From NCBI RefSeq assembly GCF_030936135.1, contig NC_082618.1:10017034-10081033 (forward strand): 64,000 nucleotides of DNA. The letters run 5' to 3'. The position numbers and the translations under genes were made by a program. The DNA comes from Gavia stellata. Taxonomy: Eukaryota; Chordata; Aves; Gaviiformes; Gaviidae. Below, piece by piece: positions 36,741 through 39,238 of the stretch (position 1 is its first letter; every line of letters starts with the position of its first letter). The notes beneath the pieces were generated by a model that saw only the letters and a program-made list of their open reading frames with translations, made no database searches and was not told the origin of the DNA.

Positions 36741-38903
36741 GATTTGGGGCTTTTATCTCCCTCCGCACACAGCTGGCTTCGGTTAAACGTCCCACGTCAG
36801 AGCTCTCGGGCGCTGGGCAGCCATCGCCGCGCTGGGCAGGCTGGGGCTCCCCGAACAGCGCGCGGGCCGCTGACCTCCTCACCGGCTTGCTTCTCTCTCG
36901 CTCTCTTTTTAAGCTATAATTGATTTGCAGGCAAATGTTGTGTTTTCACTAACCGTAGCAAAAGAAGGGAGAGGGAAAGAGCGAGGGAGCACTTGTTCCC
37001 CCGCAGCCCCGTGGCTCCTGCGCGGCCGTTCCTGTCCCTTGGGGCCGAGCAGTGACTCCTGCCAGCTCCTGCCTGTCCTTGGCCACGCCGCGTCCTGCCT
37101 GTCCTTCGGTGACTCGTGTGGGACCGCATGCCCTGCCGGGGTGGGATTTTGGGGAATTTGGGCTCGCAGGGAGGCTTTCTGGGGGCTGCGGGATTTCTGC
37201 AGGCGGCAGAACTTGTCACCTCTGCGGGGGACTGCCAGGGGGTGGCACTGCAGAGACTGATGCCAGCCAGGGAAAACGCATGGACAAAGAACCGGGGAGG
37301 CAGAGCGATGGGCGCAGGGCCTGGCTGGGGTCCCGTCCCGGCCCGGCCGCTGCTCCCGCTCTGCCACCCCTCCGAGCACAGCGGCCGTGAGCTCCCCTCG
37401 CTGCTGTCAGGCACATAAACCCCTTCAGTTAGCAACGGGGAGGGACAGAAGAGAGGGTAAAAGAGATGCAAAGGCTCAAGAGGAACTGGAGGGGAAGTTT
37501 TCCAGCCCTCCAGCCTGCCCAGAGCCTGCTTTGGGTTCAGAAGGGGTCAAGCTAAAAGCTCCTGCATCCGAGCTGCCATCCCAAGCGCCGCAGATGGCAA
37601 ACGCACACGTTCCCCTGGGCAAATGAGCCTGGGCGCTCTCAAACAGCCCCGCATTGCGAATCCGCTCGCTCTGGAACTAATTACACGGTGAGGCAGACGA
37701 GCAATGTATTTTGATACCTAAGAAAGCATTGTAAAACTCTTGACCGCTGCAGCAGAAAGCACCGCTGCGCTCAGGAAATTGGGCTCTTGCCCTCGCCCAG
37801 CCCGGCTCTCGTGCACGGCTGGGTCACGCGAGATGTGCAATTAGCCATTACACGGTCACCAGGGACTACCTGCGCGGCACGTATGACCCCCCAGGCCACA
37901 GTCAGCACGTTTTCCTACATTCCCCCAGATTAGTCCATTTTCTTCCCAGCTGTTTAATGAATAAAAAAGTATAATTAAACAACAAAGGTCTAGTGCAAAC
38001 TACTATCTTTCCTCCCAGACCTTCCAGCAGATCAGGGCATGGCAGAGGCACATGCACAGGAATGTTGACGCCATTCCTGCAGGAAGCTCAGACAAGACTG
38101 GGAACGGCTCCATGACGTGGGGACACCCTTCTTCTTATGGGGTAAAAAACTGGGGGGCAATTTCTGATAGACCCCATGCCTGGATAGACCCAACAAGTGC
38201 AGAAGGAGCCGCAACGGCGTGGTGGGGCTGTTGGGTATCAGAAGAGGCAGGTCCCTACAGACCGGCAGCGCAGGCAGCGCTGCCCTCCCACTGCCCCGGG
38301 ACGGAGCAGCCGAGCCCTGCGGCACAGCTGGAAGGAGGCGAAATACTTCCCAGACCTAACTCAGATGTGTCACATAACCGGTCAGACCACTGATGTCCTC
38401 TGTGCTGGGAACACGCTCGCTGAAAAACTCAAAATACAGGGAGAAACCAGGATCCTGCCGCAAAAAGATGGGGGCGAGCGGCAGGAGAGCCTGGAGCAGC
38501 GGCGGCTGCGCGGAAGCGAGGCTCAGCACCGCCGGCAGAGCAGGACACGGCTGCCCGGCAAGTGATTTCGTTTACTTTGGTGGAGTTACGCCAGGAATGG
38601 ACTTGGCCCCAGCATGTCTGAGGGTTATTGTATCTGCGTTTCCCCATGCATATACTGTCGAGATGTATTAACTTCCTTAAATGTACCAGTAAAACAACCT
38701 CTTACGATACACTTTAATGAACTTGTACAGTAGCCAACAAATTGTGCATCATATAAAACCCATTCGGCCTTATAGACTCTCTGGCTATTTTGTAATAACT
38801 GCAATTTGCTTCTGCTGAAGCAAGATAACCAGGGTTGAGAAGTCAGGCCTTGCAGAAACCTAAATATTTGATTTGGGGGGGAGTGGGTGGGAGAAGGAAG
38901 AAA

Positions 38904-39046
38904 GGGGCCTCTGGGAGCTATTTATGGGGTCAAAATAACATGAGACCTGCTCTTCTCGTAGCATTTCCACCATCAAGGAAATGAAATACTGTGAGAAGAC
39001 CAGCACTTGCATTATTTTGGCCCCATAAATGGCTCCCTGAGGCTTT
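38904..39046. repeat. 143-nt fold-back (long hairpin) element
   Basis: The left arm 38913-38938 (GGGAGCTATTTATGGGG then TCAAAATAA) pairs with the right arm 39012-39037 (TTATTTTGGCCCCATAAATG then GCTCCC) over 26 positions; the two non-identical positions are both G-U compatible on the plus strand. After one T-T mismatch, eight more pairs (three G-U) extend outward to 38904/39046. Inside, TCTTCTC (38951-38957) can pair with GAGAAGA (38993-38999), and CATTTCC with GGAAATG around an 8-nt loop. It resembles ancient fold-back elements or a long structured RNA. Confidence 0.8.
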
Positions 39047-39238
39047 CAAAAGCCCGTGAAAAACAAACACAAATACAAATAAATGCTAATACTGGAAACG
39101 TAAATACTAAAACCTGCCCATGTCCCCGGAGGAAACGACTCACAAAGTCCTGACTGCCCTAAAAAAAAAAAAAAAGACGACGGGAAAAAAGACGAAGGAG
39201 CAGGAACATCTGCTGAAGCCATGAGGAGAAAGTCACTT

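Follow-up and report, generated by a model that had tools for sequence, protein, structure and literature searches.

A near-perfect hairpin near TBX2 in Gavia stellata: probable descent from a dispersed, palindromic, MITE-like element

Within the 64,000 nucleotides of Gavia stellata DNA analysed here (the window), the segment 38904–39046 folds back on itself almost from end to end. The question raised by this locus is whether the pairing is maintained by selection on an RNA, as the G-U pairs of one strand had been taken to suggest, or has been left there by a palindromic mobile element.

Fold and setting of the hairpin

The fold-back announced by the original prediction was borne out. A repeat search of the window returned two arms of 61 nt, 79% complementary and separated by a 15-nt loop (Table 1), and the MFE of the hairpin was −80.9 kcal/mol on the plus strand (z −11.07) and −74.3 kcal/mol on the minus strand (z −9.87), with none of 200 shuffles equally good in either case; both strands fold strongly, the plus strand better than the minus. 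The two inner helices that had been proposed (TCTTCTC/GAGAAGA and CATTTCC/GGAAATG) were present in the plus-strand fold, and the 26-nt arms (38913–38938 and 39012–39037) agreed at 24 of 26 positions, both exceptions being, as described, G-U in a plus-strand RNA and A-C in a minus-strand RNA. A sliding-fold scan of the plus strand of the window, in 143-nt frames at 20-base steps and corrected for G+C content, gave a residual of −6.73 SD at 38901. The frame at 38921, which overlaps it, reached −3.77 and the next separate place −3.06, while in three resampled controls of 64 kb the lowest values were −2.91, −3.65 and −3.15. No other hairpin of the window comes near the one at 38904–39046 once base composition is taken into account.

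A very stable fold, better on the plus strand, speaks for a functional structured RNA, or a pre-miRNA, antisense to BCAS3, and hairpin repeats can pass for pre-miRNAs, as in the case of mmu-mir-763, which is described as made up entirely of Eulor5A sequence and was judged a mis-annotation (PMC3495686). On the other hand, no Rfam family reached its gathering score anywhere in the window, and the difference between the strands depends on a handful of transitions. The weak match found at the segment (MIR1512; E 0.42; 18.2 bits, the gathering score being 79) was taken as chance.

As regards the setting, T-box motifs of TBX2 were located at 13.8–18.8 kb of the window on the minus strand, and the WD40 domain of BCAS3 (PF21034) gave 11 matches on the minus strand of the same contig, at 10.285–10.416 Mb. 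Since the element lies at 10.056 Mb, 0.23–0.36 Mb away from the latter, it has the WD40 exons of BCAS3 on one side and TBX2 on the other. A second BCAS3 domain, PF12490, had no match in the genome; 14 control genomes were equally without a match, which makes the result uninformative. The ten ORFs examined, out of 584 listed and all on the minus strand, had no Pfam match at E 0.01. No paper on a hairpin at the BCAS3/TBX2 place was found in the literature searched, which left outside it most subscription papers and the Repbase and Dfam entries, and words of 11–13 letters sought in PMC texts gave no repeat paper among the matches listed. The exact 26-nt pattern was absent from collections of viral and prokaryote contigs, a result that says nothing on vertebrates.

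Dispersed copies and their common anatomy

The genome (1.32 Gb, 1185 contigs) was searched with the window segment as a probe, which matched three other places at 69–78% identity. These three copies, used as probes in turn, matched only the window copy besides themselves; the window copy is thus the closest to the common core of these first four. A 137-nt consensus of the four found 12 places, a 252-nt consensus three further ones and a third probe none in addition, whereas the letters of the first probe in reversed order, used as a control, had no match in the genome. Altogether, whole or partial copies occupy no fewer than 16 places, spread over 14 contigs and including one recovered by the window-segment probe (C9:35.72M): two each on C4 and C9, and one each on C25 (the window), C15, C6, C14, C20, C7, C26, C23, C29, C27, C1 and C13, those on C23, C26, C29 and C27 being partial and matching in pieces. 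These counts are lower bounds; the number of first-look candidates was exactly 12 for each of the three consensus probes. The hairpin is no peculiarity of the BCAS3/TBX2 locus, and the suggestion that it could be an ancient palindromic repeat of the Eulor/UCON or MITE type holds as to the kind of element, no family being named by this comparison.

Most copies have an outer inverted repeat, starting near TTTGTGTTTGTTTTTCA, outside the hairpin, and several a one-sided tail, the fullest ones (on C6 and C20) extending to probe positions 247–252. Thanks to outer repeats and tail, the orientation of most copies does not depend on the palindrome alone; for three with unclear tails (C4b, C26 and C23) it was decided by match score. 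In the element orientation, which corresponds to the minus strand of the window, the whole window copy spans about 38848–39074 (Table 1). The opposite-side partner of the outer part of its 5′ arm is unrecognisable, and the facing G/A-rich run on the plus strand looks like a local replacement or expansion. The remnant of the tail lies outside the local alignment, which ends before reaching it. The decamer noted in the 5′ arm is a perfect match of CArG type, and four such decamers occur in the window.

Table 1. Features of the window copy, in window coordinates
Feature	Position	Strand	Basis
Faint remnant of the one-sided tail found beyond the 3′ arm in several other copies	38848..38870	−	By eye; weak alignment, approximate boundary
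Purine-rich (plus strand) stretch; degraded or replaced outer inverted repeat, kept in several other copies	38871..38903	−	By eye
61-nt arm (3′ arm in element orientation)	38907..38967	−	Repeat search; aligned with the arms of other copies
15-nt loop	38968..38982	−	Repeat search
Other 61-nt arm (5′ arm in element orientation), containing CCATAAATGG at 39023–39032	38983..39043	−	Repeat search
Outer part of the 5′ arm, starting ATTTGTGTTTGTTTTTCACGGGCTTT in element orientation; common to other copies	39044..39074	−	Copy comparison

Dispersal could also be due to retrocopying of a structured RNA gene or to segmental duplication instead of a DNA transposon, and the small number of copies and the asymmetric tail would agree with this. 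However, when loci of about 3 kb were compared, significant similarity between copies was restricted to the element, with the exception of one match elsewhere between the C27 and C6 loci; moreover, outer inverted repeats are present and no common A-tail was seen by eye among the flanks of the copies. We consider such an origin very unlikely. A target-site duplication was likewise not recognised in the flanks of the 16 copies, which were inspected by eye and in which the ends of the element are uncertain.

MITEs and other fold-back, non-autonomous DNA transposons are short and non-coding, have long inverted repeats that form most of the element, and occur as dispersed copies. The present element resembles them in each of these respects, its copies of one short sequence being scattered over the genome, and by anatomy it is MITE-like. 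It differs from typical MITEs in its asymmetric tail, in the lack of a target-site duplication recognisable by eye and in the few copies found, although a high copy number is usual for MITEs rather than strictly defining. The family may already be a listed one. Eulor and UCON of Repbase, old vertebrate repeats that are mostly unclassified, are similar by description in being old, dispersed and non-coding. Birds carry them with many constrained bases (PMC2935454), and a member, Eulor5A, is the repeat that was mistaken for a pre-miRNA (PMC3495686). Eulor5 and Eulor6 have been placed among the Cryptons because they resemble salmon elements (PMC5753468). The present element is like non-autonomous Cryptons a short, ancient, non-autonomous vertebrate repeat; however, animal Cryptons have been reported without terminal repeats (PMC3212892), a feature that our element, built mostly of inverted repeats, does not share.

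Some features of single loci were recorded as well. Inside one arm of the C29 copy (L027, about 1470–1500) there is a C-rich run of more than 20 nt, which is G-rich in the element orientation. Beyond the 3′ outer repeat of the C27 copy (L043), just below G000:C27:7600710, lies what we take to be CR1-like avian sequence, which may be a nested insertion and could then date this copy. For five of the 16 copies a listed homeobox was present at a distance of at most 1 Mb, the scoring having covered 150 of 317 candidate places; this count was made by eye and without a null model, and the proximity to homeobox genes was set aside. None of the transcription-factor motifs sought was seen in the 20 kb around the C15 copy.

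Comparison of the arms among copies

Divergence, covariation and G-U pairs were counted in one alignment (A2) of 12 of the 16 copies: the half copy on C23 had been excluded beforehand, and those on C27, C1 and C13 were found after the alignment had been made, hence they are absent from its counts. If the hairpin were kept as an RNA, a change in one arm should be accompanied by a compensatory change in the other more often than by chance. For 61 pairs in the 12 paralogous copies, the letters of the 3′ side were dealt out among copies in 500 shuffles, and no measure of covariation stood out. Standard pairs occupied 71.0% of the cells against 70.4% in the shuffles (127 of 500 as high); 20 pairs had both sides changed against 17.5 (117 of 500), with 28 cells carrying such changes against 23.3 (72 of 500); further pair types numbered 62 against 61.4 (241 of 500), and the covariation score was 0.173 against 0.167 (146 of 500). 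When the partner was slid along, pairing in the 12 copies fell from 71% to 37–46%, as expected of an ancestral palindrome with long inverted repeats.

Compensatory changes beyond chance were thus not found among the 12 paralogous copies, and a count in the first four leaned the opposite way for two of them. RNAalifold on the four copies gave 43 pairs, six of which had both sides changed, with a covariation term of +1.94 kcal/mol, against the structure. In the same four, the arms of the window copy depart from the arm consensus at five and six of 50 positions, with no departure in common (0.2 expected), while the copy C9b (L005:1502–1631) shares five departures between its arms against 0.96 expected, the C15 copy (L002) two against 0.27, and C4a one against 1.25. 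The eight shared departures in all four copies, against about 2.7 expected, count for a structured RNA, though the window copy contributes none. The excess in C9b and C15, which we do not explain, perhaps reflects subfamilies with a palindrome of their own, or an uncertain consensus of four copies.

The original prediction had read the two G-U pairs as a bias suggesting selection on the plus-strand RNA, a reading that neither covariation nor the strand totals supported. In its 61 pairs the window copy has six pairs of G-U type on the plus strand against three on the minus strand; in single copies the asymmetry goes either way (14 against 3 in C4a, 4 against 10 in both C4b and C14), and summed over the 12 copies there are 82 against 65, with no overall strand bias. 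The G-U bias was therefore rejected as a sign of RNA selection. One of the two positions in question (columns 22/139 of the alignment A1; C-A in the minus orientation) is identical in three of the four copies first compared, so that it is most simply inherited. The copies, when compared, do not clearly point to selection on the RNA fold, with the reservation that these tests rest on paralogues, and orthologues could reveal a constraint on the window copy that paralogues do not make visible. With no covariation beyond the shuffles and no overall G-U bias among the 12 copies, a functional RNA antisense to BCAS3 is a reading to which we give hardly any credence.

Descent of the hairpin and possible recruitment

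The copies are dispersed, their arms have changed independently of each other and no overall G-U bias is seen; for these reasons we attribute the palindrome to inheritance from a fold-back, MITE-like element, and it is very probable that the segment is an old copy of a low-copy, non-coding transposon family of this kind. The ancestral element would have been a near-perfect palindrome of two arms of about 61 nt, flanked by outer inverted repeats and a one-sided tail, and a transposase supplied in trans most likely acted on its ends. After insertion every copy would have decayed, with the two arms mutating independently, and the window copy would owe its fold to having changed least since the ancestor and not to repair of its pairing; as an RNA it would presumably be inert at present. 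Points against this explanation are the small number of copies (at least 16), unusual for a MITE, the failure to recognise a target-site duplication by eye, the asymmetric tail, the excess of shared departures in C9b and C15, the G-U asymmetry of single copies and the lower divergence of the window copy.

As for the age, the JC distances of the 12 copies range from 0.17 to 0.41. Taken with a neutral rate in birds of about 2 per billion years, they suggest that the copies are, very roughly, 85–200 million years old; the family would then predate living birds.

The leave-one-out divergence from the consensus, for which columns with fewer than nine letters and positions with a tied consensus were left out, was 15.4% in the window copy and 20.4–31.6% in the other 11. 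At 21 of 136 sites the window copy compares with a pooled value of 25.6% (binomial P 0.003, uncorrected), and heterogeneity over the 12 copies had P 0.074; the window copy had been noticed for being palindromic, a choice that favours the least diverged copy. Its lower divergence could possibly reflect constraint. The copy might have been exapted as a cis-regulatory DNA element of TBX2, with conserved binding sites and the hairpin as a by-product, which is compatible with an origin from a transposon. Besides its being the least diverged of the 12, this would agree with the description of TBX2-BCAS3 as a regulatory block with noncoding elements conserved between human and zebrafish along its length (PMC2745767), and with the reported constraint on 52–61% of the bases of Eulor, UCON and MER repeats in turkey, namely 61% for 1,581 Eulor and 52% for 3,281 UCON repeats (PMC2935454). 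Furthermore, the window copy alone among the 12 keeps the CArG-type decamer at its position in the arm; the C7 copy has a CArG match, but elsewhere in the element. Against this, the difference in divergence is weak once the choice of the copy is allowed for, and the decamer-length stretch at the CArG site ranks 29th of 52 in conservation within the family, with several such decamers in the window. With one of 12 copies having it in place, the CArG box was set aside as a conserved function of the family. On balance we regard exaptation as DNA as a tentative and rather unlikely proposal. A more specific version, in which an insertion of the palindromic transposon, predating living birds, was recruited beside TBX2 as regulatory DNA, kept a CArG-type site in one arm and stayed nearer to the ancestral sequence than the other copies through purifying selection at this locus, its cruciform-forming geometry possibly adding to its function, appears improbable.

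Descent from a palindromic mobile element can explain a near-perfect hairpin beside a developmental gene, and little can be concluded about selection on an RNA from two G-U pairs on one strand. If the exaptation were true, a structurally recognisable transposon insertion would have been added to the regulatory landscape of TBX2.
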